DNA of 64,000 bases, from assembly GCF_904846215.1 (NCBI RefSeq), contig NZ_CAJGZK010000001.1:62001-126000 (forward strand), read 5' to 3'. This document shows, in pieces, positions 38,014 to 63,915 of the stretch; the first letter of the stretch is position 1; every line of letters begins with the position of its first letter. Position numbers and translations under genes: made by a program. The notes under the pieces are model-generated. The model ran no database searches. It saw only the letters and a program-made list of their open reading frames with translations, and was not told the origin of the DNA. Source of the DNA: Psychrobacter glacincola. Lineage in GTDB: Bacteria; Pseudomonadota; Gammaproteobacteria; Pseudomonadales; Moraxellaceae.

Positions 38014-38155
38014 ATATCAACCTATATCTTTCAGAAGACACTTTTTAGGATTTATAAGACATGTGCAAAGATTGCTCTAAATTTAAATCTAAGCACAGAG
38101 ATAATAAATTAACTCTCACAATTTACCTTACTTATAAAGCTTACGGATGTACCTC

Positions 38156-39424: not shown

Positions 39425-39635
39425 TAATTATTTTACGTTGATTATATCACTCAACAATAATAGTTTTTTTACTATTATGACTATCGTAGTCTTCATCAAG
39501 ATGATTAAGAAATAAATGTTTATTATCACCTATAGATTTAAGCGAATATCATTGCTTCGTAGAGAGTATTAATATAATATTAATTTATAAGAGATACCTA
39601 CATAAAAGTTCATATATTCGCAGGATTAACTTTCA

Positions 39636-45812: not shown

Positions 45813-47882
45813 TTACTTTTTAAATATATCTACTCTAGTCTCTACACATTTTCGTAATAGTAAATTATTGCTACCGATACCAAATAGGCTGTCAGGTTTT
45901 TGATAAAAATCTAACCCTCTATCAATCTTAACAACCCATCCATTATCTATAATAATTTCATTCTCATGTAACATTTTCTCATTGATCTGTAGCTCAAGCT
46001 CAATATCCATCTCAATTAAACTCTGCTGAAGCTCATTCAATCTATCTGACATTTCTTTAACATCAGTACTTTCACCATAAGTAGTAATCAATTTTATTTT
46101 CTTAATGCTTGGTATGCTGATTACAGCTTCACAGAAACGTACAAAGTTTTGTATTTGATGATTCTCGCGAATATAAGGATCTTTGACTTCAATTGATTTC
46201 GCACCTTGTAAATAAGGGCTAAAAATTGTCTCGTAGCTATAACCTATGGCTCCGTAGTGAATTGTAAAATACTGCTCAGTCAATTCTTTGACAAGAGTTT
46301 CTCTAATATAAGGTTCATCAGCTAATTCAGAGCTAACGTGCTCAGCTTTATGAGTAGGTAAAGTGGATGAAGAGCTATTAATTTCATTATCTGCATGGAT
46401 GTTCTTTCGTTGAGGATTCTGAGTAGCATGCGCATCTTTTGATTCAGGACAATAGACTATGACCTCTTTACCCGTCGAATCAAAATAAGATAAATTTATC
46501 TTCGCAAACTCATCATCTGATTTCCGCTTATTCATTTGCTCTTTTACGCGACGACGTGCTTCTATAGCATAGCTTACATACTCTTCAAACTCTTCATCGG
46601 TTGGCGGAGCACTAGGGTGTAAGATTTTTAGAAACGCAGCAACAGTCTTTTTAATACCTTTCTCATCGCGGCCTTCGACCGCACTACCCAGCTTGATACG
46701 TCTACTCACCTCTTCATAGCGGTTGGTTTGCTTCAGCTGATAGTGAAAGGCTTCAGCTAAGTAATCAGTAATAAAACCGTAGCTACTGGTTAAGAACTCA
46801 CTACTATTCTTAGGCATTTCCCAGCCCGGTAAATAAAATGCAAATCTGTCCATTACCGCTAAATCAAATTCTTTAGGCAAAGGCTGAAATAAGTCATAAA
46901 CTTCCGAGTTTACAATTTGCTCGATAGACAAATCCAGATTACCAACGAATGCCATAGAGGCATCAGCAATTACTTCAACTCCTCGTGAGAACCTTCCATT
47001 CGCCATGAAGTCTTTCATGATCTGAATAGTGTCTTGGTCTTTAACTTTGATACCACCGACTTCATCAAACGCCACCGTATCCCAAAAACCAACCAGACCA
47101 ATTTTTTTGCGCTGGTTATTGTAAAATAGTGTTGCCTTGGTAGCTTGACCGCCACTAATCAATGTTGAGTAAGGAGAAAACTCACTAAAGAAGTAAGATT
47201 TACCAGTGCCACGTGGGCCAAGTTCAATGAAATTAAAGTTAGGTTCAACCAAAGGAAGCAAACGTGCAATGAAATGCATTTTTACGCGCTGGCTCAGCTT
47301 ATCTGGCTCTAACCCAACAGTTCGTAAAATGAAACTCATCCATTCATCGCGACTACACTCCTGCCGGCCTTCACAGTAATGCTCAAAATTAAACCGACTA
47401 AGCTGTATAGGCCGAAGATCCTCAATATAAAAAGTATAATCGTCTTCTTCTATTTCGTTATAGGCAATAGTAACTTCAGCCCATAGCCCACCCTGTAATA
47501 ATCGATCATGATCACGATAGAACTTATCGCTAATAGCTACTTTCCTGGAATCAAAGTTCTCTAAGGCTGCCCAGTGTCTACGATCTTTTTCACTGTAATT
47601 TACATGTACTTTGTCAATAAATCGGTATTTACCTTTGGTCGCTACTTTAGACTGTGCCATATTCGATTCATTAGGACGCACATAGTTATCATTCAGTGTC
47701 TCTAAAACCGCTTCCATACCTGCTTGGATTTCAGCTTCATCATCACTAGCACAGTAACGTGCCAGCAAAAACTCAAGAACAAAAGTAGGAACGTTAGTCC
47801 CCTTTTTTATTCTATGTACTAAATCTTTTCTGACCACTTTTCCATCAAACAATCTGTTCAACTGTATATCTAAAGCGTCCAT
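45813..47882 (-). CDS. brxL: BREX effector BrxL, with MIT_C-like C-terminal domain
   Basis: A 689-residue AAA+ protein of the BREX phage-defence system, needed for restriction. The N-terminal BrxL domain is followed by the AAA+ core: Walker A GPRGTGKSYFFSEF (about residue 225) and Walker B DTVAFDEVGG. The canonical type I protein is described as Lon-protease-like. Here no Lon catalytic text is visible. After a Ser/His-rich linker near residue 500, the last 150 residues end in IDNGWVVKIDRGLDFYQKP and CVETRVDIF, which matches the MITD1 C-terminal phospholipase D-like (MIT_C) domain. It is the last gene of the operon, 3 bases after pglZ. Confidence 0.9.
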   Translation of the reverse strand: MDALDIQLNRLFDGKVVRKDLVHRIKKGTNVPTFVLEFLLARYCASDDEAEIQAGMEAVLETLNDNYVRPNESNMAQSKVATKGKYRFIDKVHVNYSEKDRRHWAALENFDSRKVAISDKFYRDHDRLLQGGLWAEVTIAYNEIEEDDYTFYIEDLRPIQLSRFNFEHYCEGRQECSRDEWMSFILRTVGLEPDKLSQRVKMHFIARLLPLVEPNFNFIELGPRGTGKSYFFSEFSPYSTLISGGQATKATLFYNNQRKKIGLVGFWDTVAFDEVGGIKVKDQDTIQIMKDFMANGRFSRGVEVIADASMAFVGNLDLSIEQIVNSEVYDLFQPLPKEFDLAVMDRFAFYLPGWEMPKNSSEFLTSSYGFITDYLAEAFHYQLKQTNRYEEVSRRIKLGSAVEGRDEKGIKKTVAAFLKILHPSAPPTDEEFEEYVSYAIEARRRVKEQMNKRKSDDEFAKINLSYFDSTGKEVIVYCPESKDAHATQNPQRKNIHADNEINSSSSTLPTHKAEHVSSELADEPYIRETLVKELTEQYFTIHYGAIGYSYETIFSPYLQGAKSIEVKDPYIRENHQIQNFVRFCEAVISIPSIKKIKLITTYGESTDVKEMSDRLNELQQSLIEMDIELELQINEKMLHENEIIIDNGWVVKIDRGLDFYQKPDSLFGIGSNNLLLRKCVETRVDIFKK

Positions 47883-47885
47883 ACA

Positions 47886-50408
47886 TTACACCGTATAATC
47901 TGTTTCTAAATTGATTTGGCAGAAAATTGCCATCGTAGATGGATTCAGTGCTTTCACTGTGAACTTACCTTCAAAATCAAGCTGCATTTTTATTGTAATT
48001 TGATTTTTATCGCCAGGTTTTAGGTGAATGGTTCCAGTTGCAGGATTGACCGCACCGCCATGCTTGGCTTCACCTACGACTTCGCCAGCCTTATTGTGAG
48101 CTTCTATGAGTATTTCAAAATCGCTATCCATAGAGAACATATCCTGGCTTTCAAGTGATATCTCAATTACAGGCAAGCGTGTAGTAATGCGCTTAGCACC
48201 ATTTTTGTAGTTCAATACAACACTTGCCTGCGCAACCGGTGTTTGCTCTATAGCTGATAACTGAAGAGTAATCACAGGCACAACACACTCTTGTAGCGAT
48301 GCTCCTCCATGATAATAGAGCATACCTGACTTATAAGAAGCTAAAGACAATGGACCCGCTACTGTAGAAAAATCACCCTTGATACCTGCTTTTTCACAAG
48401 AAAGTTTATAATGATTATTATCAACATCTCCCTCTCCTAATAGGCAGCGCTCATGCACGTTATTCCAATTGCCTTGCAGTTTGCTACAAGTATCTCCCGC
48501 TGCCGCATGCGTATTCATAAAGAAACCGTGATCAGTGGCTATCACAACTTCATTAAACCCAGCATCTTTTAGTTTATGAACAGCCACACGAATACGCTTT
48601 AATGCGTTAATAATTTCGGTAGGTGCAGTGTCGGGATGGTTTTCAAAATGACTATCTATCTCTACTGAGCGTAATATAAGTAGCTCAATATCATCCTCAA
48701 TCTCAAAGCGACCACGTACAAACTCTTCAAGCCTTCCCTCTTGGAAGCGATGTCCATAACGCTTCTTAACTAGATTCATACGCTGTACAACTGTTTTAAC
48801 TTCCTGCTCCTGAATATAGGGTACAAAACCATTCTCAGTTTTAACCAAACGGAAATCAGTACTAGCTCCTGGGAGTAAACTTGCCATACCGACTAAGGTG
48901 ATACTAGGTAGTTGAGCCAGAGCAGTTATAAGCTCTACCTTCCCATCTTCAGCAAGCTGTTGCGCTAAAGCCACACCTAGCTCATAACGCAAAGCGTCAA
49001 CCATAAAGTAAGCAACTTTATTGCCGCTTTGCATCAGCTTAGGAGCAACCATCTGATCGAAAACTTCCGTATTAGCACGTTTACTCGCCAGCGGCCACCC
49101 GCTCTGCTCCAGATGACTGGTAAATATAATCTGTACTTTTTCCATCAGCCTGCCGTATTGCTTACGGACTTGCTGTTGTAATGGCTTCATTAAGCCTTGA
49201 GTATCTTGCCAATCATAATCGCTAACCGCCTGCTCAAACTCACGATGTGAGCGATCTACCTCATGTAGCTGGCTCACATAAAAGTCTATTAGCATTTCCA
49301 TGCTATTCTTATGTTCAATTATTAGTCGCTCGTTGTCCTGGCAGGCTTCCACTAGAGCTAAAGCGGAACGTAGCAAATCCCACTGTATTTGGCTTTCGCC
49401 TTTACCTGTCCATACAGACTGTGCATGACGTGATAAAATCAACCGTACTTTATCAGTGTCATTATGATTTAAAGAATCTATTGCCTGTAATAGAAAAGTC
49501 CGCTCTTCGAACGGGAAGGTATCTCTTTCACCTAAGTCAACCATATGGCTACAGCTGTCTTTAAGATTTAAATCATTTTCAATAGCTTCAGCTTGCTCTA
49601 TATATATATCCTGTGTGCGCCTATCACTACGTAAACGTTCACAAATATCTTCAACTAACGGTTGAGCACTATCGCCTGCTCGCGGCACATCTAGCAAATC
49701 CGAAGGTAGCGACTCCGGTAAGTCAAAGGCAAACTCGCTAAACAACATAAATCGCCATAACTCATCAGCGATAGCAGACCAACTCTCAGCCCGACTCTTT
49801 AAAGACAGACCGATACTATCCTTAAATAGCTCTTTAGCCTCACCTACCCAAGCATTGGTTTCTTTTAATGCAGCTTGCTGTATGGCACTAGGTGCTAGTA
49901 AGGCAAAAATAATGCCTTTGGTAGATTCTACCCCGAGTTGTGCCTGCAAATTAGGCCAGCTCTGCCCATCACCAATGTTATTTATAATGGCAAAGCTTGG
50001 ATTTGAATCAAGAGCAAAAGCTTTACGTATATCAGTAGTATGGTCAGGCTTAGCTTGCAAGCATAAATCCATATAACTATCACTATCCCCATCGGGAAAT
50101 ACAGCACCGCACTCAGCATAAAGCGAAAAGGGATCTATTTGCTTTTCTTCATCCTCTATCGGTTTTGAAGATGGCACATAGACAAGCAGTTGTTCTATCT
50201 CTTTACGACCTAACAGACCTAAAGCCATAATTGCATCTGCACGACTTTTTATACTCGTTTCAGTAGCATCTACAACCACGCGTTTTTCATTAGCCATACT
50301 AGAGCAGATATCGCGATAGCGCTGATCTGGATCATATACTACTAACACTTCACTATGGTTCAGGCGTGGTATGAATATTTGTTCTTGTATGAATTGCTGA
50401 ATAGTCAT
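47886..50408 (-). CDS. pglZ: BREX alkaline-phosphatase-like protein PglZ
   Basis: BREX core protein, 840 residues from the ATG at 50408, of the alkaline phosphatase superfamily. Metal-binding text is VAYFMVDALRYELG (Asp of the first site, about residue 475) and VVIATDHGFFMNT (Asp and His of the second, near residue 630). Needed for BREX methylation and defence, though its substrate is not settled. Alternative starts are an ATG at 50417 and a GTG at 50435 overlapping the pglX stop; I choose 50408 because GGAG has a better distance to it. Operon neighbours are pglX and brxL. Confidence 0.93.
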   Translation of the reverse strand: MTIQQFIQEQIFIPRLNHSEVLVVYDPDQRYRDICSSMANEKRVVVDATETSIKSRADAIMALGLLGRKEIEQLLVYVPSSKPIEDEEKQIDPFSLYAECGAVFPDGDSDSYMDLCLQAKPDHTTDIRKAFALDSNPSFAIINNIGDGQSWPNLQAQLGVESTKGIIFALLAPSAIQQAALKETNAWVGEAKELFKDSIGLSLKSRAESWSAIADELWRFMLFSEFAFDLPESLPSDLLDVPRAGDSAQPLVEDICERLRSDRRTQDIYIEQAEAIENDLNLKDSCSHMVDLGERDTFPFEERTFLLQAIDSLNHNDTDKVRLILSRHAQSVWTGKGESQIQWDLLRSALALVEACQDNERLIIEHKNSMEMLIDFYVSQLHEVDRSHREFEQAVSDYDWQDTQGLMKPLQQQVRKQYGRLMEKVQIIFTSHLEQSGWPLASKRANTEVFDQMVAPKLMQSGNKVAYFMVDALRYELGVALAQQLAEDGKVELITALAQLPSITLVGMASLLPGASTDFRLVKTENGFVPYIQEQEVKTVVQRMNLVKKRYGHRFQEGRLEEFVRGRFEIEDDIELLILRSVEIDSHFENHPDTAPTEIINALKRIRVAVHKLKDAGFNEVVIATDHGFFMNTHAAAGDTCSKLQGNWNNVHERCLLGEGDVDNNHYKLSCEKAGIKGDFSTVAGPLSLASYKSGMLYYHGGASLQECVVPVITLQLSAIEQTPVAQASVVLNYKNGAKRITTRLPVIEISLESQDMFSMDSDFEILIEAHNKAGEVVGEAKHGGAVNPATGTIHLKPGDKNQITIKMQLDFEGKFTVKALNPSTMAIFCQINLETDYTV

Positions 50409-50434
50409 ACGTTGCATTTCTCCATTGTAGTTCA

Positions 50435-53400
50435 CTACTTACTACCTATAACAGTTTGCTTTATCAAAGCTGTTAGTTCAGTATCGGTAAGATTTTTTGG
50501 CTGCCATTCAGTCTTTGTATCACCAGTAGGCTTCTTACCACGCATTATAGGTATTTCAACTTCATGCCAAAAGATATCCTCAACGTCATGTGCGATCGCT
50601 AGGCTGCGGTCTTGATGACATTTACGCAATACACGTTCGGGCCAAATGCTCCCCGCTAAATGCGCCCAGTCGTATTCACCATCTTCAAGTTTTTCCCAGG
50701 TTCCTTTTAACTTTTTCTGCCAAGCTTTATGTTGGAATAACTTCCATAGCGGTGCGGCAGTAATTTGCACACCATCATTTAAGTTTGGCTTCCAGAACTT
50801 AGCCAAGCGCAGTAACTCATCACGGAAGTCTTTGAGTTCAGCTTCTAAGTCAGTTAACTGAGCCAGTTCTTTTTCTTCCTCAGTACTACGAGCAGATTTA
50901 TTTCGCAAGGTATTTAAATCTGCTGTGACGATAGCTAGTTTGGGCTCGACAAAATCGTTGATACAGGTATAAAGAGTTTGCTCATTTAGACGATGGTAAT
51001 AAATCCAAAGTGTGTAAGAGCCTGATATTGTTTGAAGTGGCCAATAAATAGGCGTATAGCGCCTATTTTGCGAATACTGATCGTAGTGAGTAGAAAAAAA
51101 CTTTGAAGACTTGCCCAAATAAGCTTTCCAATCCGAAGCACCCAATAAAGCCAAGCATTTCTCCGATAGGTCAGGATTCGCTATTACATCAAGTGCTTGA
51201 ATTAATGAATCAAGATCAGCAATACCAGTCCGCCCAAGTTTATTCTGCGGGTTTTCAAAATTGAATGCAGGTGGTTGCTTTGGTAGTTCTGCGTAAATAT
51301 CATTAGTTCTTACTGACTGCACTTGCTCTTGCCAACGACCAAAAGCGCGGCCAACCAACCAGGACAAATGGTTTGTAGCGGCTTGTACCCCAAGCTCAGC
51401 TTCTTCTGTTTCCTCATGGACTTTTCTTAAAGAGACTGCTTGCTGAAGATCTAATTGTAGTTCTTCATACTCTTCTGCTGTTAGCCCATAGCAATGCGCT
51501 AAAGACAACTCGTTTTCATGACCCAGCAAAGTGCTAAAATTAGTTTTTGGCTGATATTTTATAGTTAAGTCAGGGCTACCAATGAAATCTAATGTTGTTT
51601 CATCGGTGGCATAATAGTCTTTCGCTGAATTTATAGCACTAGTAATTGTATTGTTTAAATTATTGTTAAGCTCACTACTGAGTTGTATAAAAGGAAGCTG
51701 TTGAATCATACCTACTTGAAATTTAGGCCTTCCAAAATTTTCTCCACGGAAGCGGGCAACTGCACTACCAACATTCGATGCGCAGATTGCAAGTGCATCA
51801 ATCTCTCTTCCCTCGTATGGAAACGCTTGAGACCTTCCAGCTGAAGGTATACAACCTTTAGGTACTAAATATGGCACAATACGTGAAGACCGGTTCATAT
51901 AGCTAAACCCAGGTTTAAAATATGCATCGATATTCTGGGGCCTAGATCTTAGCTTGCCTTTGGAATCATAAAAATTCTTAACTTCATAACCTGAACTAGA
52001 CCAATTTACAATAAGATTAATTGGTGAATGCCATGGTATTGCTTTTTCTGTTTTGGAATAAAAAACCCAAGAATCTGCTACTAACTCAGGACTTACTTCC
52101 CAATAATTTCGTAAGAAACGAAAGTCATCACCTGTTTGTAAGCCTACTTTTATTGTGGCACCAGCCTCCTCCAAAGTAGATAGATTGATTTTATCTATTA
52201 CTTTATGGTCAACCCAGTAACAATATGGAGAATCTGTTAGCTTACGAAAGTTTTGAGCATTACTAATAAAAACCTTTTTATTGCTTTTATTGATATTACA
52301 GCACTCTTTTAATAACTCCTGTTTATTCGAATCAGTTACTAAACGATAAAATAATGAAGTGGACTGAGTAGGAGCGATAACATAGGCTGATGTTTCAACC
52401 ATTGCGTCAAGCACTCCATCCCCCAAGTCTGCACACAGTGCAATTTCATTAGTATGGCCAAGCACTTTTTCTCTTAGCCCACTCATTGTTGGCAAATATA
52501 AGCATGTTCGACTAGTAATTGCTCCAACTCGACTTTGTGGGCTTCCAATACAAATCCCACGCTCAACAAAACTAGCTAAAATATTACTTTTAGTATGTGG
52601 ATAGTTATGTTCAATATACTTCTTAGAGTTTGATGAGGCTTCGCCAAATGGTGGATTCATTAACACCACATCAAACCGCTTACGGCAGAGATCAATGAAT
52701 GCAAACCCCTTAGCAGCATCTTCAGCAAACAGTCTTTTTTGATCGGTATCAAATTCTGCTCGATCAGCATAATCATTTAATGCCTTTAAGATTAGCTGTT
52801 CAGCATCATCCCAAAATGTCTCATTATCTATACCATATAGGTCAAACCCTAACTCTTGCTGCGGTGTAGCAGCCTCTAGCTCATCCTGAAACAAATCACT
52901 GATGCTATCACTGCCTTTTTTAGTTTCCCATTGAGCACGTGCATTATCTATAGCAGTTTGAATTTCTTCTTCAATTTTTAATAGCGTACCAGCCTCGCCT
53001 GCTAGCTCCATCTTATCGAAGATAACTTCTACCAACTGACCTAATGCAGGCGGATGAAGCTTTCCGGTGAACTCTTTTAATAAGTCTTTATCACCAGGCA
53101 TCGGTTCAGCACATACGATATTTGACTTCACAATCACTGGGCGCTGCTGCGGCTTCACACCTTGCTGCTGCCAGGCACGCTGAGCACGTTGCCATAGGCT
53201 TAGACCTGCTATCTGCACTGCTCGAGGGTCAATATCAACACCATGAATGTTATTTTCAATAATGAGCTTAGGGATTTGCGCTTTAAACTCATCTATATTG
53301 GCAAAGCTAGTTTGTAGAGCGTGTTGATTGGCCTCACGCTGAAAGGCATCTGGTCCCAGCTCTTGCTCTAATTGCCAAGCTTCCAAATAAATCTGTTCAT

Positions 53401-54424
53401 ATAAATCAAACGCATATAGTCCAAAATGCATAGAACCACAGGCTGGGTCAAGCATACGGATGCTACGTGGGTCTTTAAGCTTGCGGTACGGGATATAAAC
53501 GGGTTGTTTTAGTAACTCTTCCTGACTTAAAGACTCGCCTTCAACGCTATCAGTTTCAGGTAGTTGCTCAGCAGACTTTAAAAATACCTCAGTAGGTCGA
53601 CGCACCAGATAACTGCAACTGTCAATTAACGCCGTATTACCTTGAGTCATTTCATACCAGATACGCCCTAGGGTATTATCTGTTAAGAACTCCACTACAT
53701 AACGTGGCGTAAAAAACTGGTTACGTACTGCCATCTCTCTACTATTTCTAGGTGCTCGTGAAGCTGAACGCATTTTATCGATTTCATCACGACCATTCCA
53801 AAACTGGTAAATCCAACCAATAGTTTCATCCTCAGCCCAAAGCGCTTCAATTTCGTTATGGTTGATTTCTGCTAGTAATTCTAATAACGCTGTCTCTCGA
53901 GGAAACAGTCGACCTTGTGTACTATAACGATCAAACAATACCGCCAGATCTATACTGAACTCATCGAACAAACTAAATAAATAGTTACGATAAGCATCGC
54001 CTGTCTCGCCGTGGCTAGTACCAGCCAATTGACGATATAGCTGAAAGCCTTTCGAGCTTTGCCCTTTACCAACAGATTCCAATAAAAAATCGCGAGCCTC
54101 TGCCATACGCAAAGCAGCCAAGCGATTAAGCACAGTAAATGCTTGCTCTCGTACGATACGGCTTAACACTTGCTTGACTCTATCTTTATCGCTTTTGCCC
54201 GGTGTAGTGGCTAAATAGTGCTCTAAAGTTTCACGTAATATATGAGCCGTTTGGCGCTGACTATTATTCAAATGTGTCAAGGAACTGATATCTGCCACGG
54301 TGCCCTGTTTTGGGTCCATACCGTAAACTGCTTGCAACTGACGTGTGAACTCATCACTTAAAATTTCGCGTGCACTATTAACAAATCGTTGTAGTCGATT
54401 TCGGGTAGTTTGATCAAATGCCAT
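50435..54424 (-). CDS. pglX: BREX adenine-specific DNA methyltransferase PglX
   Basis: A 1329-residue methylase that marks host DNA at a non-palindromic adenine site so that BREX spares it. Motif I for SAM binding is LDPACGSMHFGLYAF and motif IV is VLMNPPFGEAS, of the N6-adenine N-P-P-F class. A target-recognition half follows and runs to the C terminus. The start at 54424 has AAGGA 8 bases upstream and follows the brxC stop by 10 bases; a longer frame from 54520 overlaps brxC and is not real. The recognised site cannot be read from sequence. Confidence 0.95.
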   Translation of the reverse strand: MAFDQTTRNRLQRFVNSAREILSDEFTRQLQAVYGMDPKQGTVADISSLTHLNNSQRQTAHILRETLEHYLATTPGKSDKDRVKQVLSRIVREQAFTVLNRLAALRMAEARDFLLESVGKGQSSKGFQLYRQLAGTSHGETGDAYRNYLFSLFDEFSIDLAVLFDRYSTQGRLFPRETALLELLAEINHNEIEALWAEDETIGWIYQFWNGRDEIDKMRSASRAPRNSREMAVRNQFFTPRYVVEFLTDNTLGRIWYEMTQGNTALIDSCSYLVRRPTEVFLKSAEQLPETDSVEGESLSQEELLKQPVYIPYRKLKDPRSIRMLDPACGSMHFGLYAFDLYEQIYLEAWQLEQELGPDAFQREANQHALQTSFANIDEFKAQIPKLIIENNIHGVDIDPRAVQIAGLSLWQRAQRAWQQQGVKPQQRPVIVKSNIVCAEPMPGDKDLLKEFTGKLHPPALGQLVEVIFDKMELAGEAGTLLKIEEEIQTAIDNARAQWETKKGSDSISDLFQDELEAATPQQELGFDLYGIDNETFWDDAEQLILKALNDYADRAEFDTDQKRLFAEDAAKGFAFIDLCRKRFDVVLMNPPFGEASSNSKKYIEHNYPHTKSNILASFVERGICIGSPQSRVGAITSRTCLYLPTMSGLREKVLGHTNEIALCADLGDGVLDAMVETSAYVIAPTQSTSLFYRLVTDSNKQELLKECCNINKSNKKVFISNAQNFRKLTDSPYCYWVDHKVIDKINLSTLEEAGATIKVGLQTGDDFRFLRNYWEVSPELVADSWVFYSKTEKAIPWHSPINLIVNWSSSGYEVKNFYDSKGKLRSRPQNIDAYFKPGFSYMNRSSRIVPYLVPKGCIPSAGRSQAFPYEGREIDALAICASNVGSAVARFRGENFGRPKFQVGMIQQLPFIQLSSELNNNLNNTITSAINSAKDYYATDETTLDFIGSPDLTIKYQPKTNFSTLLGHENELSLAHCYGLTAEEYEELQLDLQQAVSLRKVHEETEEAELGVQAATNHLSWLVGRAFGRWQEQVQSVRTNDIYAELPKQPPAFNFENPQNKLGRTGIADLDSLIQALDVIANPDLSEKCLALLGASDWKAYLGKSSKFFSTHYDQYSQNRRYTPIYWPLQTISGSYTLWIYYHRLNEQTLYTCINDFVEPKLAIVTADLNTLRNKSARSTEEEKELAQLTDLEAELKDFRDELLRLAKFWKPNLNDGVQITAAPLWKLFQHKAWQKKLKGTWEKLEDGEYDWAHLAGSIWPERVLRKCHQDRSLAIAHDVEDIFWHEVEIPIMRGKKPTGDTKTEWQPKNLTDTELTALIKQTVIGSK

Positions 54425-54434
54425 CTGTTTTTCC

Positions 54435-57400
54435 TTACCCTTTATCAGTAATAGAATGATTACTATGCGAACCATCAAGTGAAACAAGCAACTCAAACTC
54501 TTCAGCATGACGCAACTCACCGCGCAGTTGTTCTAACTTTGTGATAAGTTGATTCAGATCAGTCATATTCGTGATATAGGCCTTTGCTTGTATATTACGA
54601 GTAATGAGTGTCTTTCCCTCTTGTTTTTGTACCTCTTGTTCTTCATCCAACTTAGCTTTTAGACGCTGCTGGCTAGTACGCTTGATATTTCTTTTAATCT
54701 CCTGCAGCTGATTCTGAATACTATAATCCTGATTGACCAATTTGCGCAGCCCAATCAAGTCTTCACTAACAGATATAGACAAGTTTTCCAAATCTAAAAA
54801 TACAGTATGTTGTTCTTGCTGCGTTAACTCTTGCCATTCCGCTATAGCAGTTACTTCTTGTTGAGCTTCTTTAATACGTTCAGCTTGCTCAGTTTGCATG
54901 ATCACAACCGTATTACGGACATGACTCTTAATACTGGTTAAGTAACTAGCAAACTCTACGCTGTATTTAAAAAATTCAGCTTGGTTGAGGCGCTCACTCA
55001 TATTATCGAGCACTTCTGCTAAGTCCATTTTTAATATACTGGGAGTTCCACTATCTGGTAACGAGTTAATCTCATTACGATGCTGCTGTAGTTTTCTTAA
55101 ATCAGTCTCTAATCCTTGCTGTAGAGCAAGTGTGAGATCAGCCGACCATTTCAGACTATTATAAAATTCTGAATCCTCTCCCCCTAGTCGCGCTGATACA
55201 TCAGACCCATCAGTAGAGAGTACTTCTGTAATATTATTAGTTAACGCTTCAATACGATCTGATCCTGGTAAATCCATGCTTTTCAGTTTTTCTGTTAAAG
55301 GGGCATATTTACGCTGTAATAAAGGAAATAGCTTAATAGCCGCCTTGCTTATTTCATCTTCTAACGGTACTACAATATCACCGCTTAGTTCAGTCAAGCG
55401 ACTAGCCGCATTTGCAAGAACTTCCATACTTGGACGCTCTTCACGCAAAGACACACCTATAGATTTAAACGTATTATTAGTTTTTAAGGCGTCAATCGCT
55501 TTTTGTCCATTAACAGTCACTTCGCGCCCGGCAACTTTTAGTTTAATTTCTCCTGCCAACAACATAGCAGAAATTAGATAACGCACAGTATCTGGCGACC
55601 AACCATAAGGAGCGTCGGTAAAGATATCACTGAGGCGCTTGCCCTCAATAGAACCTTGGCGTTCGACCATGTCACGGATACTTGTAATGGCCTTATGATC
55701 TGTATTAATCGTAGCATTACCACTAGTACGCTGTATTAATCCAAGCGGGTCAATATCACTGGTAATACCTGATAAGCTATTAGTACTAAGGAATTTTTCT
55801 GCTAGGTTGGTATTCACTCGCACAGGCGCCTCACTGTAACGTTCAAATACTTGCGCCGCCACAATAGCTAAATGTTTACGTCCTGCTTCAATAAGATCTT
55901 GGTTAATACTTTCAACAGCCGTTACTTCTCCACGAAATACAAAAGACCCTTGCAATAAGCTACGCTTAATTAAGCGTACAAGTTCACTAAGCTTACGTTT
56001 AGAGATTTCTATCTGGCCTGCACAATACTCTTTAACTTCTTGATCTGGCTCATTACGATACTTACTAGCGATTTCACGACATCGATAAATATCTCTAGTG
56101 AGATCTATCATCTCAGGCGTAGTGCGACCGACAATGAAAATATTGTGCTTTGCAAGTTTCTCACGGCTTTCACTGATTAAGCGTGCTTTTGTAGCCTCGT
56201 AGTCTTTAGGATCAACTAATTCAGCTATTGTTTGTACTGCATTACGCTCACCTAATAAAGACGCAGGAACCCCATTCTCATTTTGAGATTTTAGACCGGT
56301 TTGTACTGATAAGGAGCCATTTAATTGTGTTGATGGCAAAGGTGAATATGCTTCTTTCAAACACTCGTTTTGAATACGACTTAGCTCGATAGGCCGTAAA
56401 GGTATGGTTGCACGCTCTTGCTCTATGTTATTAAGCTTTTCACTAAAGAAGCATAGATTACCTTCTTGCTCACCAAAAGGAACAATGGCATCGTTAATAA
56501 GCTCATCAACTGCTTTTTTCACTGCATCAGCATTAGATGCCGACATAATATCTGAATGCATAAGGCTGGTTATATTTTGCAATGAAATTGGTAAATTACC
56601 TAAAATTTGCAACACACATACAGTCTTAGCAATATCTTGATGTAACTCTGAGTCTGAAAAACGAATTTTAACTTTACCAACTGATTGATAAAGTGCTGGA
56701 TAACCTTTTTCAATATCTTTTTTCAAAGAGTCAAATAAAGTAACCGTATTGGCTAACCAACCTACCGGCTGATTTGCAATAGGCTTGGTGACATCAGTCC
56801 CCTCAACCAAAATATCTTGGACGACTTTAATCGCTGAACGTAAACCAATACCCCCCGTCGATTTAGCTAAAGAGCCTAACAGATGTAGCAAAATATCAAA
56901 ATGTGCTGGCAAGAATGGATAGAGATTAATAAAAGTCTGCTTATCAAAGTCAGCGCCGTAAGCGCGTGCATCTACAAGCTTTGTATGGTTACGTAGAGCT
57001 TGACCATGATTATCAAATAGATTCCCTAGTGTTGTTTCACCTGCTGGTGACTTACTGAGCAGACGACTATAACAAATCTCTTTGATGTCATTAGCTTCGA
57101 GATCTATTTGTATCGGGAAGCGGTCTTTCAACTTATATAGTTCAGGAGAATTAAGCGAAGCTTTTGGGTCATCTTCTGTGAGTGTTTGCTGTGCGGTACC
57201 GATTACCCAAACCTTACCATTACCAATATTTTTTAAGTTTTTGGCCAAGCCGTCCAAGTTGAGAATGAGGTTTTGTCGGGAGCCAACGTACTGACCTACT
57301 TCATCGATAATAAAAATGATGTGTTCTTTACCCGAAGCCTCACGGGCTATTTCAATCATTTCCTCTACACGATCATTTTCAAAACGGATTACTTCGCTGT

Positions 57401-58094
57401 CCTCAGTGTTAAATGATGATGCCGTTTTGAATAGTGTTGGATACATCTGGTGTGCTATTTCAGGAATAACACTATCAACAATCAAGTCATCATTGCGATA
57501 ATCATCCCATTCCTCTCCTTCAGTGTAATCCCTAAAAATTTGTAAAAACTCATCATGACGTTTTTCTTTTTTTAACTTTCTTTCAAAAGCTGCTACTTTC
57601 AAATTACGAGAATAACCTGCCCATTGTAGAACTTTGTAGTACAGGACTGTAGATACCTCTTCCATTGTCGCACCAGCCAGCTGCTCACTAGCTAAGTCAA
57701 GCATAAGGACAGCCGCAGGAAATCTTTTTGACACAGAAGCTAGCAAAGCCTTCGTGGTTGATTTTTTAAATCTATCCTGAAGATGCTGGATAAAAGGAGT
57801 GCCATCAATCTTAATATTATCGTCAAAAGCTAAACCTAAATACTTTGTAAAAGAGCTCTTCCCTGAACCATAGAAACCTGAAACCCAGACACCTACCTCA
57901 TTCTGCCCGCCTGCTTCCATAGCTGCTTGCATTTTACTAAGTAGTTTTTCAAATTGCTCTTCGATGCTCTCAGTGACAACATACTCAGATATCTCAGCTT
58001 TTAAACGTTCCTCTTGAGATACCCCATAAGTAATGACCTTTTCAATAGTGCGGTAAATATCTTTATTATTATCAAATAAGCTTTTAATTTCCAT
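54435..58094 (-). CDS. brxC: BREX P-loop ATPase BrxC
   Basis: A 1219-residue ATPase, a core BREX component. Walker A is FYGSGKSSFTKYLG at about residues 69-82, and Walker B is IIFIIDEVGQYVG near residue 262. The C-terminal third is mostly helical coiled coil, ending in LDEEQEVQKQEGK and an Asn-Ser-His tail. It follows brxB by 40 bases and precedes pglX by 10. It is thought to bind nucleic acid and to associate with BrxB and PglZ or PglX in a defence complex; that is family knowledge. Confidence 0.95.
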   Translation of the reverse strand: MEIKSLFDNNKDIYRTIEKVITYGVSQEERLKAEISEYVVTESIEEQFEKLLSKMQAAMEAGGQNEVGVWVSGFYGSGKSSFTKYLGLAFDDNIKIDGTPFIQHLQDRFKKSTTKALLASVSKRFPAAVLMLDLASEQLAGATMEEVSTVLYYKVLQWAGYSRNLKVAAFERKLKKEKRHDEFLQIFRDYTEGEEWDDYRNDDLIVDSVIPEIAHQMYPTLFKTASSFNTEDSEVIRFENDRVEEMIEIAREASGKEHIIFIIDEVGQYVGSRQNLILNLDGLAKNLKNIGNGKVWVIGTAQQTLTEDDPKASLNSPELYKLKDRFPIQIDLEANDIKEICYSRLLSKSPAGETTLGNLFDNHGQALRNHTKLVDARAYGADFDKQTFINLYPFLPAHFDILLHLLGSLAKSTGGIGLRSAIKVVQDILVEGTDVTKPIANQPVGWLANTVTLFDSLKKDIEKGYPALYQSVGKVKIRFSDSELHQDIAKTVCVLQILGNLPISLQNITSLMHSDIMSASNADAVKKAVDELINDAIVPFGEQEGNLCFFSEKLNNIEQERATIPLRPIELSRIQNECLKEAYSPLPSTQLNGSLSVQTGLKSQNENGVPASLLGERNAVQTIAELVDPKDYEATKARLISESREKLAKHNIFIVGRTTPEMIDLTRDIYRCREIASKYRNEPDQEVKEYCAGQIEISKRKLSELVRLIKRSLLQGSFVFRGEVTAVESINQDLIEAGRKHLAIVAAQVFERYSEAPVRVNTNLAEKFLSTNSLSGITSDIDPLGLIQRTSGNATINTDHKAITSIRDMVERQGSIEGKRLSDIFTDAPYGWSPDTVRYLISAMLLAGEIKLKVAGREVTVNGQKAIDALKTNNTFKSIGVSLREERPSMEVLANAASRLTELSGDIVVPLEDEISKAAIKLFPLLQRKYAPLTEKLKSMDLPGSDRIEALTNNITEVLSTDGSDVSARLGGEDSEFYNSLKWSADLTLALQQGLETDLRKLQQHRNEINSLPDSGTPSILKMDLAEVLDNMSERLNQAEFFKYSVEFASYLTSIKSHVRNTVVIMQTEQAERIKEAQQEVTAIAEWQELTQQEQHTVFLDLENLSISVSEDLIGLRKLVNQDYSIQNQLQEIKRNIKRTSQQRLKAKLDEEQEVQKQEGKTLITRNIQAKAYITNMTDLNQLITKLEQLRGELRHAEEFELLVSLDGSHSNHSITDKG

Positions 58095-58134
58095 TATATA
58101 TCCCTAAGTAAATCTCATTAATTAATTCAGATTA

Positions 58135-58746
58135 TCAGCCACCGACATGTACTGAACGGTAGTTACCATCTTCCGGATAAAACCCTAAAAACTTAAGTTG
58201 GGTTTTACCTGTCCTCATACCTGGATAAAAAAATATAGTAGGTACATGAAACTTACCTTGAAGTTGGCTTTCCATAGACCCTATACGGAGATAAGGATGA
58301 AGGGCTTCAATATCTGACACTAATAAAATTGAGTTCGGTTTACCTTCAAGATCGGATAACTTAGCTTCAAGCTTATTTTGTAATGCGTTTTTTTTGGTAA
58401 GTGCTTCTGCTAATGATTTATTGGTTTTTTGCCACTGCAAACCTAAGTTTTCTGCTGAATCTCTATTCTCAAGAGCTGCTGAATCTTGCTTTTCCCAAGT
58501 TTTCTTAATAAAAGCAGGCATTTCATCAAAGACTTCTTGTACGGCTTTAGCCATAGAGAAAATATGCACGTCCCAACCTTCATTTCGGAGTTTTGCTGCC
58601 CATGCAGGAAGCTGCCGCTTTATTTTTAATATTTTTTGTGGATCAAAGATTAAATAAAAGATAGGCTCGAAGCTGGCATGACCAAACTCTCGGCCTACTC
58701 TCACTCGCTCCATTAACTCATTAAAATCAGTATTGAGCGATGACAT
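58135..58746 (-). CDS. brxB: BREX protein BrxB (DUF1788)
   Basis: A 203-residue protein of the DUF1788 family. Recognisable text is GREFGHASFEPIFYLIFDPQKIL near the N terminus (split) and, close to the C terminus, VPTIFFYPGMRTGKTQLKFLGF followed by NYRSVHVGG. It overlaps brxA by 20 bases, so the two are co-translated. BrxB is needed in type I BREX but has no known enzymatic activity. The position between brxA and brxC is the standard one. Confidence 0.93.
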   Translation of the reverse strand: MSSLNTDFNELMERVRVGREFGHASFEPIFYLIFDPQKILKIKRQLPAWAAKLRNEGWDVHIFSMAKAVQEVFDEMPAFIKKTWEKQDSAALENRDSAENLGLQWQKTNKSLAEALTKKNALQNKLEAKLSDLEGKPNSILLVSDIEALHPYLRIGSMESQLQGKFHVPTIFFYPGMRTGKTQLKFLGFYPEDGNYRSVHVGG

Positions 58747-59521
58747 CTATTACCTCCTCCATTTTTTTAAACTGCCAACTGATGCGAGTCACATCACCTG
58801 CTGACTGCACAATTAACCAGTTATTTTTTGCTAGTGTTCTTAACTCATCACGTACTTCATTAGGCTCCATACCAAAAAGCTTCCAGGACTCATGACTAAT
58901 GATTGCGTTATCACCTAGACCGTTAAAATGTAGAAAGTGAGCTAAATATAAAGAAGTGTTTAAATGAATACGGATAGGTTGAATGGTTCGCGTAGGCGAT
59001 CTACCTGACGACAATAGATTATAGTCAGCACAGCAACCAATAATATAAGAAGATACACGTTTAACAACCGAGTCTGCCCATGGTTTTTGCGTTTTCCCTT
59101 CATCTATAGCATGGGCCATAAAATCCCGAGCATCTTCAGTAGTTATTGTATCGTGACCACCTAAGTAACGGTTCCAATATACTTCTATAATAAAATCCTG
59201 TAGGACTTTATTGGCTTGTGCAGTGTGTATCAAAAATAGCTGATTAATATCTTGTGATGATAAAACTGGAGCCAGTTTTTTTAAATGAACAGCTACATTA
59301 GTTTTAATATATCGGGGTGAGAAACACTCAGCAATAATATTGCGCAGTCGACGTGCCGTGACCATTGGAAACAAACCAGAACTTAGTGCCTCTTCATATA
59401 ACTCAGAAACCGTCATACCATGTTGGTATATCTCCAATAGAAGCTTAGTTTCATTAACGAGGCCTAGGCCGGCTCCCAGTTGCGTAGTATAAAATTGATT
59501 TCGAGAAATATCTGAACTCAT
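58727..59521 (-). CDS. brxA: BREX protein BrxA (DUF1819)
   Basis: A 264-residue protein of the DUF1819 family, with winged-helix-like DNA-binding structure known for its homologues. Typical text is GAGLGLVNETKLLLEIYQ, TARRLRNIIAECFSPRYI and VYWNRYLGGHDTITTEDARDF. Its ATG overlaps the brxE stop in a TAATG, and its end overlaps brxB by 20 bases, so the first three genes form one coupled block. The start is well set by that overlap. Confidence 0.93.
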   Translation of the reverse strand: MSSDISRNQFYTTQLGAGLGLVNETKLLLEIYQHGMTVSELYEEALSSGLFPMVTARRLRNIIAECFSPRYIKTNVAVHLKKLAPVLSSQDINQLFLIHTAQANKVLQDFIIEVYWNRYLGGHDTITTEDARDFMAHAIDEGKTQKPWADSVVKRVSSYIIGCCADYNLLSSGRSPTRTIQPIRIHLNTSLYLAHFLHFNGLGDNAIISHESWKLFGMEPNEVRDELRTLAKNNWLIVQSAGDVTRISWQFKKMEEVIDVIAQY

Positions 59522-60009
59522 TATGCTTCCTTCATATAAGGAAAGCTTTTATAGCCTTTTTTAAAGGCATTAAGATAGTGACTCGCTGCTACTTTCAGCA
59601 TAAGCTCTAAACCCTCATCATTAAATACACCTACATTGACAGGCCCTTCAGACTTTTCAACCTCACTGTAGACCAGCTGTTCCAATGCTTCAACAGCACT
59701 ATCTTTACTTAGCAGTCTTTCTTTCATATCGATATTTTGCACTGCTTTGGAAACTTCTCTTTCAAGTGAGTCTGGTAGCCTGTATAGATGATAGTTTTCA
59801 CCTACACCGATATATTCATCGTGTACCAATAATGCTGCCTCACACACTCCATGATACTGTGCTAACAGCATTGTTCTAGGATATGGATACATAAGGAAAG
59901 CTGGACTAGATGCACCGAGAAAATTACTTCCCCACCAATCGAATTGACTCTTTTCACCCAGATAGCCAATTAAAAATCGATAATTCAATACTAAGTCTAC
60001 AATTGGCAT
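59521..60009 (-). CDS. brxE: BrxE family protein, first gene of the BREX operon
   Basis: A 162-residue protein. The text FLIGYLGEKSQFDWWGSNFL, PYPRTMLLAQYHGVCEAALLVHDE and YHLYRLPDSLE fits the BrxE family. BrxE is the hallmark first gene of type 6 BREX, while the rest of this operon ends with BrxL as in type I, so the layout is mixed. It overlaps brxA by one base (TAATG). GGAA lies upstream of the ATG. The role of BrxE is not known. The promoter should lie in the AT-rich gap to its left in transcription order, 60010-60110. Confidence 0.78.
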   Translation of the reverse strand: MPIVDLVLNYRFLIGYLGEKSQFDWWGSNFLGASSPAFLMYPYPRTMLLAQYHGVCEAALLVHDEYIGVGENYHLYRLPDSLEREVSKAVQNIDMKERLLSKDSAVEALEQLVYSEVEKSEGPVNVGVFNDEGLELMLKVAASHYLNAFKKGYKSFPYMKEA

Positions 60010-60523: not shown

Positions 60524-60903
60524 TACTATGGTGTCTTCAGCGTAGCTCAGTTTGCGCTTGATTACTTTGAGCACAACATTAACAGCAGCATATTCTACCA
60601 ATGATGCAAATACACGCTAATTCCAAGTCTTAAAACCAAATGCGTGATTGTCATTGATAATGCTAAGTTTCATAAAAATAAATGCATTCAAAAGCTATTG
60701 AACAGACATGGCTATCGTATCCTATGGCTGCCGCCTACAGCCCAGACTTGAAGCATATCAAAAAGAAATGGGCACAAGTGAAGTTTCTACGCCAAGGCTG
60801 GATGCAAAATGACTTATCTAAATTAGTTTATGATACTTGCCCTAGACATAACAATTTTATTTTGAACCGACTATCTCACGAGAGTCATTCAGCAATTATA
60901 TAA
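60524..60903 (+). pseudogene. IS630-family transposase relic (C-terminal part)
   Basis: A decayed DDE transposase. From 60551 one frame reads FALDYFEHNINSSIFYQ, an in-frame TGA, then TLIPSLKTKCVIVIDNAKFHKNK (contains the second catalytic Asp of the DDE core), ending in ILWLPP. It shifts at about 60722 into a second frame with AAYSPDLKHIKKKWAQVKFLRQGW and ends near 60903. IS630 proteins have CVIVMDNASFHK and LPAYSPDLNPIEKKWA here. The N-terminal half is missing, so it is an inert fragment. It may mark the join between the BREX and ATPase/HNH modules. Confidence 0.85.
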
Positions 60904-61100: not shown

Positions 61101-63044
61101 ATGAAAAGTTTACAGCTCGCTAAAAATATAAAATTAGAAATCTTAAGACTTCTTGCTCAACAAGAAGAAAAGCTATTCAATAAAATTGATTCTGTAAGTT
61201 TTTTCGACTCAATATTAGATTTACGGACTAAACCATCTACGGACCCTAGGTTTGCAGATGCTAGACTCGACTTGCAACAGCACTACGTAAATAATAATGA
61301 TTGGACACTGGAAGAAATATTACTCGATAGGTATGATTTCACCAATTCTGATGAAAATTTTTTCAAACTTCTTAATCTAGTTATATCCCCTACTGTCAAT
61401 AATACGGAAGAAGAAGTAAAGTTTTTCTATTACACCCTAAATCCAATATTTAACAGCCACTCACTTGAATATCGCTTAAAAAGCATTAATGAACATGGTA
61501 TCTCAATATTTGAGTTAGATACTTTGGATAGTGAGAACCAATTCAAAGATATAGTTGATAATCATATCCCAATTTTTGTTAATAAAGATAAAGATGTTAA
61601 TATAATAGAGAAGCTAAATAAAAATCACCCTTTTTATATCTTGCTTAATCCAACAACATGGGATGATTATTCAAATAAAAATCAATTCACATTGTCAGTT
61701 CAATATAAAGATCAACACACAACATTAGGATCGTTGAAAATAATATCAATTGACTCCAAAAGTACAACACTGAGCTTGTCATACCAACTTACAAAGCTAG
61801 AAAAAGAATATTGTTCATTGGGAGAGAAAATTGACTACTATAAAAGCATCAAGGATTTTTTCGGAAACGATTATTTAAGTATCTTAAAAGCTTTTAATGA
61901 TGTTGCTTTTTTTCCACAAATAAGTGAGTCTTTTGAGAACTCTTCGGATTTCAAAAATAGTTTAATCAGGTCTGATGGTCAAGAGCAGTTAATGCGTCAA
62001 GCACGTTATATTATTGATGGTTATGATCTAAGTAATCTTTATTCGTTTGAATATCTCTACAAGCCCAATTACTCAAATGATATTGATACTTTAAATATAC
62101 CTTTTAATTTTAATGATAACTCTATCCTTCCTAATAGGATTTATGCGCTTATTGGTGAGAATGGTGTCGGTAAAACCCAATTAGTTTCAAAACTACCGAT
62201 AGATTTAGCTAGTCACGTATTAGATACTTTCACTCCTAAAACACCACTTTTCAGCAAAGTTATTGCTGTCTCTTATAGTGTTTTTGATGATTTTAAAATC
62301 CCAAAAAGCTCATCAAAAATTAATTATATATATTGTGGTTTAAGACAAGAAAGAAACGGTGAAAAATATACGCTTACTAAAGGTGATTTAAAGGAAAGAT
62401 TTTTTAGCTCCATTCAAAAAGTTCAAGAAAGTAAAAGGTTCGATAGTTGGTGTGAAATTGTTGACAATTTCTTTCCAAAAAATACAGTCGATCAATGGAA
62501 AATATGGAATGAATCTAATCTTGAATACGAATTAAATATTACTGAAATTAGTAATTCTCTCAATAACTTCAGTTCAGGTCAGTCAATTTTTATTTTTATT
62601 TTAACGGAAATATTAGCGAATATTCGCTACGATTCATTAATTATATTTGATGAGCCAGAAACGCACTTGCATCCGAATGCTATTTCTCAGCTCATTAATA
62701 GTATTCACCTATTAGTTAAAAAGTTCCAATCGTACTGTATTATTGCAACTCACTCTCCAATCATTGTACAAGGTATTCTGTCTAAAAATGTTTATGTTAT
62801 AAGAAATGAAAATAATATTTTAAGTGCCAAACATCCTTCCATTGAAACATTTGGAGAGAATTTAACCAAAATTACAGATGATATCTTTGGTGCCAGAGAT
62901 ACAACCTCTCAATTCAAAAATGAATTGCAAATATTAATTAATAAAGGTTATCGTTATAACGAAATTATAAATTTACTTAAAACGAACAATGTACCTCTTA
63001 GCTTAAATCTTACTATTCTATTAAATAGTATGGTATCGAATTAA
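61101..63044 (+). CDS. SMC/ABC-like ATPase of a Septu-like defence pair (extended PtuA-like)
   Basis: A 647-residue protein whose C-terminal half is an ABC-type ATPase: Walker A GENGVGKTQ near residues 352-360, a signature-like FSSGQSIFIFILTE near residue 492, Walker B SLIIFDEPETHLHP and a switch His in ATHSP. About 345 residues lie in front of Walker A and do not match a motif I know; PtuA of Septu normally begins with the ATPase. The gene is very AT-rich, unlike the core genes, and sits in a defence island. It is followed at one base by an HNH nuclease gene, the typical PtuA-PtuB order. It probably senses phage or DNA and licenses the nuclease. Confidence 0.82.
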   Translation: MKSLQLAKNIKLEILRLLAQQEEKLFNKIDSVSFFDSILDLRTKPSTDPRFADARLDLQQHYVNNNDWTLEEILLDRYDFTNSDENFFKLLNLVISPTVNNTEEEVKFFYYTLNPIFNSHSLEYRLKSINEHGISIFELDTLDSENQFKDIVDNHIPIFVNKDKDVNIIEKLNKNHPFYILLNPTTWDDYSNKNQFTLSVQYKDQHTTLGSLKIISIDSKSTTLSLSYQLTKLEKEYCSLGEKIDYYKSIKDFFGNDYLSILKAFNDVAFFPQISESFENSSDFKNSLIRSDGQEQLMRQARYIIDGYDLSNLYSFEYLYKPNYSNDIDTLNIPFNFNDNSILPNRIYALIGENGVGKTQLVSKLPIDLASHVLDTFTPKTPLFSKVIAVSYSVFDDFKIPKSSSKINYIYCGLRQERNGEKYTLTKGDLKERFFSSIQKVQESKRFDSWCEIVDNFFPKNTVDQWKIWNESNLEYELNITEISNSLNNFSSGQSIFIFILTEILANIRYDSLIIFDEPETHLHPNAISQLINSIHLLVKKFQSYCIIATHSPIIVQGILSKNVYVIRNENNILSAKHPSIETFGENLTKITDDIFGARDTTSQFKNELQILINKGYRYNEIINLLKTNNVPLSLNLTILLNSMVSN

Positions 63045-63045
63045 T

Positions 63046-63915
63046 ATGATTAATTTAAATCCATTACAAGATCCTAGTGTAGAATTTCTTAATGAAGTAG
63101 TTTCATCAAAGAAAAAGAAGAAAAATGAAATACCTCCATTTTATAAAGATAGAGTTATAGCATTATCTCAAATAATGTTGCCGGCATATCAAGTGTATGA
63201 TGTTGCTTTCTTACAAAACACATTGCACAGAGTCACAGCAAGTATAACTTTTACCTCGAATCAAAAAAATGATTTACTTAATTTGTATAATTACAGTAGT
63301 AAACCATTTATAAAATTAAAAAACAAAATTATTTCACGACCTAATAATCATGAAGTTCATACTTGTCAATATTGCACTATAAACAGCATTAACACGTTAG
63401 ACCATATTATGCCTAAAGAGAATTATCCTGAATTTGTAGTTCATCCGAAAAATCTTTTTCCTACATGTTCTCAATGTAATAGTTATAAATCGACAAAATG
63501 GATGACAAATGGTGTTTTTGAATTTTTAAATCCTTACCTTCATTATTTACCAAATGAACAATTTTTATTTGCAAATATTAACTATGTTAATGATACTTTT
63601 GATGTTCGTTTTTACTTAGGTAATCCAAATCATTTGATACCATCATATTTATTTGATGTTATTCAAAATCATTACAGGAATCTTCATCTTTTAGAGAGAT
63701 TCACAAATGAATCCTACAAAGTTATTTCTGAATTTGATAATTCTATTCAAGGCTCGCTTACGACACAAAGTCTTGATAATTCTCTTAATAGTGCTCGAGC
63801 TTCTATCCGATTAAATCAAGCTACGTTTGGCTTCAATCAATTTGAAAATATTCTTAAGTTGGAGCTATGTAATGGTTTAGCTTTTAGACAATATTGCCAG
63901 GTCTCGGGGTATTAA
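63046..63915 (+). CDS. HNH endonuclease of the Septu-like pair (PtuB-like)
   Basis: A 289-residue protein with an HNH motif: CQYC near residue 107, LDHIMPKENYPEF (catalytic His), then NLFPTCSQCNSYKS near residue 140-152, giving two CxxC zinc pairs around the His/Asn core. The first 100 residues and the last 130 are not identified. Its ATG begins one base after the ATPase stop, so it is translationally coupled. By family knowledge the nuclease would cut DNA when the ATPase is released or activated. The pair could be Septu or a related ATPase/HNH system. Confidence 0.82.
   Translation: MINLNPLQDPSVEFLNEVVSSKKKKKNEIPPFYKDRVIALSQIMLPAYQVYDVAFLQNTLHRVTASITFTSNQKNDLLNLYNYSSKPFIKLKNKIISRPNNHEVHTCQYCTINSINTLDHIMPKENYPEFVVHPKNLFPTCSQCNSYKSTKWMTNGVFEFLNPYLHYLPNEQFLFANINYVNDTFDVRFYLGNPNHLIPSYLFDVIQNHYRNLHLLERFTNESYKVISEFDNSIQGSLTTQSLDNSLNSARASIRLNQATFGFNQFENILKLELCNGLAFRQYCQVSGY

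Follow-up and report, generated by a model that had tools for sequence, protein, structure and literature searches.

The present analysis concerns a pair of adjacent genes in a 64,000-nucleotide stretch of the Psychrobacter glacincola genome (contig NZ_CAJGZK010000001.1, positions 62,001 to 126,000, termed the window), in which a gene for an ATP-binding cassette (ABC) ATPase of 647 residues (61101..63044, + strand) is followed, after the single base 63045, by a gene for an HNH nuclease of 289 residues (63046..63915, + strand), both starting with ATG. The pair is a new member of PDC-M01, a catalogued but little-studied candidate defence system of PADLOC, belonging to a branch that bears an AbiJ_NTD3 domain (NTD3), and is not a new system. 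The original prediction, made from the letters alone, had correctly placed the two genes one base apart and beside a BREX system within an island, while its proposal of a distinct ATPase/HNH defence system had to be given up, since the pair falls inside a named family of the same architecture, an outcome that it had itself named as counting against the proposal.

Membership in PDC-M01 is carried by matches that run almost from end to end of both subunits. The PADLOC PDC-M01A model PDLC04240 (639 positions) aligns its positions 29-637 with residues 24-643 of the ATPase (E 4.3e-129), and the PDC-M01B model PDLC04266 (281 positions) aligns its positions 1-275 with residues 1-284 of the HNH protein (E 8.9e-55); with whole-protein E-values of this order, the matches are not due to chance. 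The two genes are adjacent and co-directional on the + strand, as expected for PDC-M01, their order is that of its relatives, and no difference in layout was seen. Moreover, PDLC04240 fits an NTD3-bearing protein of Tenacibaculum from end to end with 1339 bits, and the NTD3 architecture is therefore already contained in the PADLOC model. Because the pair fits PDC-M01, because a PADLOC model of such length exists and because fusions between AbiJ-NTD3 and an ABC ATPase were already noted in 2013, it cannot be regarded as a new system. Among relatives, the HNH frame lies directly after the ATPase, on the same strand and within 60 bases, in all 80 testable frames (gaps of -50 to +12). These frames, drawn from loci L045 and L047-L133, had an ATPase of at least 150 bits and at least 800 bases downstream, room that six others lacked; the weakly matching L044 and the interrupted L046 were left out, and the set was fetched by the ATPase alone, with near-identical contigs among its members and, in a few cases, a partial ATPase.

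The ATPase is built of three parts, namely NTD3, a family-wide middle stretch and a PtuA-like head with its C-terminal part, a layout that follows from the NTD3 match, the conservation of the middle stretch and the alignment to PtuA. The first part, residues 8-147 (61122..61541, + strand), was recognised through Pfam PF18860 (E 4.8e-22; 78.6 bits against a cut-off of 32.5) and retains the signature motif PSxDxR..A..D..QH..NN.DW, in which the polar positions D48, R50, D57, Q60, H61, N64, N65 and D67 are identical in 6/6 rows of alignment A6; this clustering of invariant polar residues suggests a binding or catalytic site. The second part, residues 178-310 (61632..62030, + strand), precedes the portion that matches canonical PtuA and is filled in 42 of the 42 NTD3-less relatives in alignment A5, where W187, D189, S239 and R290 are identical in 44/44 rows (48 rows less four NTD3-only fragments) and thus as constant as the Walker residues. 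The third part, residues 311-647 (62031..63041, + strand), supported by VIA-align to 8eea_C, harbors on the same strand Walker A GENGVGKT (residues 352-359, 62154..62177), the ABC signature SSG (491-493, 62571..62579) and Walker B LIIFDEPE (513-520, 62637..62660), with G352, N354, G357, K358, S491, G493, D517 and E518 present in 44/44 rows, as well as the switch histidine at residue 551. A front of about 345 residues that could not be recognised had been noted ahead of Walker A; it is indeed absent from canonical PtuA, its length is 351 residues, and a wholly unknown front domain is ruled out, since the front is composed of AbiJ_NTD3 and the middle stretch common to the family.

Structure prediction had been suggested as a check of this front. 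The middle stretch was predicted confidently (predicted local distance difference test score, pLDDT, mostly about 90), whereas NTD3 gave no usable fold match. In the full-length model NTD3 was predicted poorly (pLDDT about 36-60), and a model of NTD3 by itself, built on just six sequences, was better with a mean pLDDT of 73.7. Foldseek returned no match for it at E <= 0.001, a negative that does not in itself speak for a new fold, and the best hits in VIA-align were stretches of Cas13a (Z 4.5, root-mean-square deviation (rmsd) 3.9, 97 aligned), too weak for use; the identification of NTD3 with a known fold was accordingly dropped.

AbiJ and its relatives share the domain of residues 8-147 together with its signature motif. 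AbiJ, however, possesses a HEPN/Abi_C part, which the window pair lacks, its effector being the separate HNH protein, and no Pfam match to Abi_C at E <= 1 was obtained in either the ATPase or the HNH protein. Abi_C follows NTD3 in six of the eight other NTD3 frames scanned by Pfam; of the remaining two, one has a sub-threshold match to a DUF559 nuclease and the other was scanned as the domain alone. The position of NTD3 ahead of other effectors was described in 2013, and its occurrence before various effectors fits a shared trigger module. As a separate observation, another segment, then AbiJ_NTD3 and then a DUF559/DUF2726-like nuclease succeed one another in L058 and, as judged by eye, in L039, L040 and L042, the DUF559 Pfam match being recorded for L058 alone and lying below the cut-off. 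A different front domain on relative L127 was considered and rejected, as its extra N-terminus, which has no Pfam match, reads by eye as an artefact of start-site choice in a frame rich in G+C.

The HNH protein contains the core C107xxC110, D119-H120, N136, C141xxC144-N145 and K148 (63364..63489, + strand), as read from an alignment of 82 rows, consisting of the window protein and 81 HNH frames scoring over 80 bits. C107, C110, D119, H120, N136, L137, C141 and C144 are identical in 82/82 rows, and the Pfam HNH match has an E-value of 1.8e-4 (22 bits against a cut-off of 21.4). The extra N- and C-terminal parts ascribed to this protein exist in comparison with canonical PtuB (about 216-223 residues or model positions) but not in comparison with PDLC04266, which covers residues 1-284.

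As judged by sequence, ea59-ea31 of phage lambda is the same ATPase-HNH pair as the window genes. Lambda Ea59 aligns with residues 169-647 of the ATPase at 27% identity over 521 alignment columns (E 5e-48), and Ea31 aligns with the HNH core at 30% identity over 128 columns (E 1e-12); ea31 is next after ea59 with a four-base overlap, which gives the same ATPase-then-HNH order as in the window. The lambda proteins match the PDC-M01 models with E-values of 3.9e-201 and 5.8e-113 and keep the residues that are invariant in alignment A2. In addition, the window ATPase matches PHROG 8066 (E 6.1e-77; lambda Ea59, 2.5e-263) and the window HNH protein matches PHROG 10378 (E 4.8e-19; lambda Ea31, 4.9e-152), and the hallmarks of the Ea59/Ea31 family, namely an Ea59-type middle stretch, an ABC head and a following Ea31-type HNH gene, are all present in the window. 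The middle stretch is common to both pairs, whereas the lambda pair is phage-borne and has no AbiJ_NTD3. When phage records were searched at the protein level, 24 of them, mostly lambda-like, gave a match at Ea59. A search for near copies of the lambda pair gave matches in 91 of 5426 complete E. coli genomes, in each case with an identity of 99% or more, and 68 of these genomes have 80% or more of the pair. Among the 15 matches listed, the four shortest (H62-H65), including BLR(DE3) and BL21(DE3), retain no more than the initial 870 bases of ea59-ea31; strains with this remnant would be without the activity of the pair, if any exists.

Both ea59 and ea31 were reported as non-essential for lambda in a CRISPR interference screen (PMC10695390), and the title of a 1994 paper by Zhou, as cited in PMC2653506, likens a phage-resistance gene of Streptomyces lividans to lambda ea59; when two titles are read together, the enzyme of Benchimol 1982 would be Ea59. 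A PDC-M01A/B pair also occurs on a plasmid of Streptomyces. No literature linking Ea59/Ea31 with Septu was found among papers on ea59/ea31 that were judged mostly by title and the start of the abstract, and literature searches on HAU3 and AbiJ_NTD3 returned nothing.

The proposal of a Septu-like pair was borne out by the fold of the ATPase, since the top solved matches of its model are Septu and retron PtuA. Foldseek placed 8eea, the E. coli Septu PtuAB complex, first (E 1.3e-9), and VIA-align laid model residues 313..647 onto residues 1..453 of 8eea_C (Z 16.3, rmsd 7.0, 274 aligned). One retron PtuA was aligned with Z 16.5, rmsd 6.7 and 285 aligned residues and reaches residue 647 as 8eea_C does, some retron PtuA rows being aligned from residue 269 onward. 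A profile of ten relatives searched against PDB sequences ranked retron PtuA first (E 7.7e-16), and profile-profile comparison joined the ATPase to PtuA with a probability of 99.0 (157 columns) and the HNH protein to PtuB with one of 98.4 (82 columns). Relative to the PtuAB of Septu and of retrons Ec78/Ec83, the ABC head and C-terminal part of the window ATPase are thus closest to PtuA and the HNH core aligns to PtuB; the window ATPase differs in that its PtuA-like head is preceded by two further parts. The canonical layout, with the ATPase head at the very N-terminus, is found in L010 (Walker A at 34-41) and is reported for PtuA of Septu EcB88 (K43; PMC13096335), and it is not that of the window protein. 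The suggested search with PtuA and PtuB models gave a divided answer: the PADLOC PtuA1 model PDLC00282 matches residues 180-625 (E 6.9e-70), while the PtuB model NF041761 and TIGR02646 stayed below their cut-offs. In a BFVD search, the whole ATPase model retrieved mostly generic ABC and MutS-like proteins, with no lambda Ea59 among the 50 matches listed. The retron assignment (type I-A, or Septu type II) was dropped, because no reverse transcriptase was recognised next to the pair, in contrast with retrons Ec78/Ec83; the neighbours scanned were BREX, BrxE-family, transposase-remnant and dynamin-like proteins, and the frames that were unscanned or matchless were all <=171 residues long.

Relatives were collected by an alignment-based scan of IMG/VR viral contigs, which are predicted as viral and need not all be phages; the best 80 of 122 relatives were kept, representing 79 distinct loci, and single-sequence scans had yielded one weak relative among genomes and none among viral contigs. 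In a tree of 84 ATPases, the five NTD3-bearing proteins form one clade (Shimodaira-Hasegawa-like approximate likelihood ratio test, SH-aLRT, 100), which is nested among Ea59-like proteins and stands apart from four canonical PtuAs. This tree was made by a quick method with SH-aLRT as the only support, after frames of <430 residues or <150 bits and repeats of the last 150 residues had been dropped. In a tree of 79 HNH proteins, the five partners of NTD3 ATPases were likewise grouped (98). In both trees the NTD3 row L047 was flagged for its odd letter make-up, and long-branch warnings arose elsewhere. Besides the window genome, the clade takes in plasmids of Tenacibaculum and Bacteroides as well as a faecal phage record and a viral contig. 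The grouping of the NTD3 ATPases in a single clade, matched by that of their HNH partners, is most simply read as a probable single gain of NTD3 followed by spread. As a side observation, IMG/VR L069 and the Acinetobacter baumannii plasmid pA52-1 (L052) are both 110,713 bases long, with ATPase and HNH frames of the same lengths and scores.

Pairs of this kind are uncommon. A search with the window ATPase at E <= 1e-20 gave matches in 6 of 199 genomes of its own family, itself included, and in 2 of 369 genomes of the class; across the phylum, PDLC04240 matched 6 of 398 genomes at E <= 1e-15 and NTD3 occurred in 7 of 398. The six NTD3 genomes besides that of the window include two in which the frames were scanned and end in Abi_C and four read by eye, none of these with a window-type ATPase. 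In L002, from another genus of the same family as the window, the NTD3 ATPase, 63-72% identical to that of the window, occupies two separate frames, a stop being noted, and the HNH frame is open, so that this copy is decayed. The copy in the Proteus record L046 is also interrupted, perhaps through a sequencing error.

On these grounds the pair is likely to act against phages or mobile elements, as a module of the PDC-M01 / Ea59-Ea31 family that would work in the manner of Septu PtuAB, with NTD3 as an extra trigger. Its place next to BREX, in a defence island, also speaks for such a role. From the fold, the gene order and the intact motifs, we infer an ATP-gated HNH nuclease, in which the ABC ATPase would bind the HNH protein and restrain it in an oligomeric, ATP-bound complex. 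Infection would alter the state of the ATPase and release the HNH protein for nucleic-acid cleavage, and the phage would be stopped directly or the cell disabled. AbiJ_NTD3, which the ATPase probably acquired at its front a single time, would most likely serve as an extra trigger or target-recognition module; a sensor is plausible. For Septu EcB88, the Walker and HNH residues are reported to be required for immunity and the growth of infected cells to be impaired (PMC13096335), and PtuAB of retron-Eco7 is reported to be toxic only as a pair (PMC11555353).

Several results weigh against this interpretation. The margin by which PtuA leads is modest, with Foldseek TM-scores to 8eea of 0.28/0.38 at an rmsd of 9.9 and a Z of 14.7 for a generic ABC exporter in VIA-align. 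The profile alignments cover only residues 487-647 for PtuA and only the HNH core for PtuB, and the HNH protein remains far from the cut-offs of NCBIfam PtuB NF041761 (14.6 bits versus 150) and TIGR02646 (17.3 bits versus 52.15). The window HNH protein has F266 where 75 of 82 rows carry W. The core family is mostly without NTD3, which is hence not essential for the core mechanism. Furthermore, the substrates reported for different PtuAB complexes differ (tRNA-Tyr or DNA), and the literature searched yielded no activity data for the window pair or any NTD3-bearing relative.

The question of substrate leads to a possible, though rather unlikely, alternative, according to which the HNH protein is an RNase that cuts host tRNA once activated, the pair being a suicide module of abortive infection whose trigger is set by NTD3. 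Retron-Eco7 PtuAB is reported to cause degradation of tRNA-Tyr (PMC11555353) and Septu EcB88 to cleave tRNA-Tyr (PMC13096335), and NTD3, which is typical of Abi proteins, is followed by Abi_C in most of the other NTD3 frames scanned; PtuAB of another Septu, however, is reported to target nicked DNA (PMC11555353). It is also unlikely that NTD3 is not a sensor and acts instead as an enzyme of its own or as a nucleic-acid- or protein-binding part that steers the nuclease to its target. The invariant polar positions of this domain, close together in sequence, exceed what a mere linker would need, but no fold match points to an enzyme or a binder, and since the domain precedes several unrelated effectors, a shared trigger fits better than a shared substrate.

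An ordinary type I Septu, in which the extra parts are a lineage decoration without separate function, is improbable. The match of PDLC00282 and the Bacillus cereus survey, in which 41 PADLOC calls were duplicated between Septu and PDC-M01 and the published name Septu is reported to have been retained (PMC11811056), speak for it. Yet PDLC00282 is itself near Ea59 (lambda Ea59, E 5.4e-184), residue 1 of PtuA aligns only at model residue 313, the stretch that precedes it holds residues identical in 44/44 rows, and the four canonical PtuA rows are set apart in the tree. That the cassette is a transposition passenger of the island and not an active defence pair is very improbable: transposase remnants lie on its right and, by eye and without a Pfam match, on its left at 60682-60903, but both frames are open with their key motifs kept, in contrast with the interrupted copy in L002, a genome of the same taxonomic family.

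Beyond the preferred interpretation of the pair as a Septu-like defence module, a broader proposal is put forward tentatively, with a chance somewhat short of even: lambda ea59-ea31 and its family on phages, plasmids and chromosomes may stand beside Septu and the retrons as a third branch of PtuAB-like immunity, with a conserved middle domain of its own. In the clade of the window pair, NTD3 would have been fitted to it once as a plug-in sensor, one that HEPN and other Abi proteins share. If so, lambda lysogens would carry, in the accessory pair beside the lambda integrase gene, a Septu-like exclusion system that has not been recognised as such in the literature searched. Taken alone, the window pair is one more catalogued candidate, and its value lies in the linkage, since gene order, motifs and fold draw the computationally defined candidate PDC-M01 together with Septu and two poorly understood lambda genes into what looks like a single mechanistic group, in which the Streptomyces phage-resistance gene of 1994 may also be placed from its title alone. 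The NTD3 branch offers a natural experiment that bears on the contribution of a front domain to an ATPase-nuclease core held in common.

The pair stands to the right of a divergent BREX set on the minus strand (BrxL, PglZ, PglX, BrxC, BrxB and BrxA, 45813-59521), which is accompanied by a BrxE-family protein (59521-60009; NCBIfam NF033447, E 2.5e-43) beside the otherwise BrxA/B/C-PglX-PglZ-BrxL set. A scan for promoters and terminators gave a signal no better than that of shuffles. To the left of BREX, a tandem at 38147-44803 comprises an integrase with an arm-binding domain, two further Phage_integrase proteins and a 776-residue protein without a Pfam match. On the right flank of the pair, the transposase remnants are followed by dynamin-like genes. 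In the same genome to the right of the window end (L140:9994-13894), two dynamin-like GTPase genes with Pfam Dynamin_N and PADLOC LeoBC matches (E 1.5e-21 and 4.4e-17) precede a gene for a 298-residue protein without a Pfam match, and these genes are possibly another defence module of the same island.

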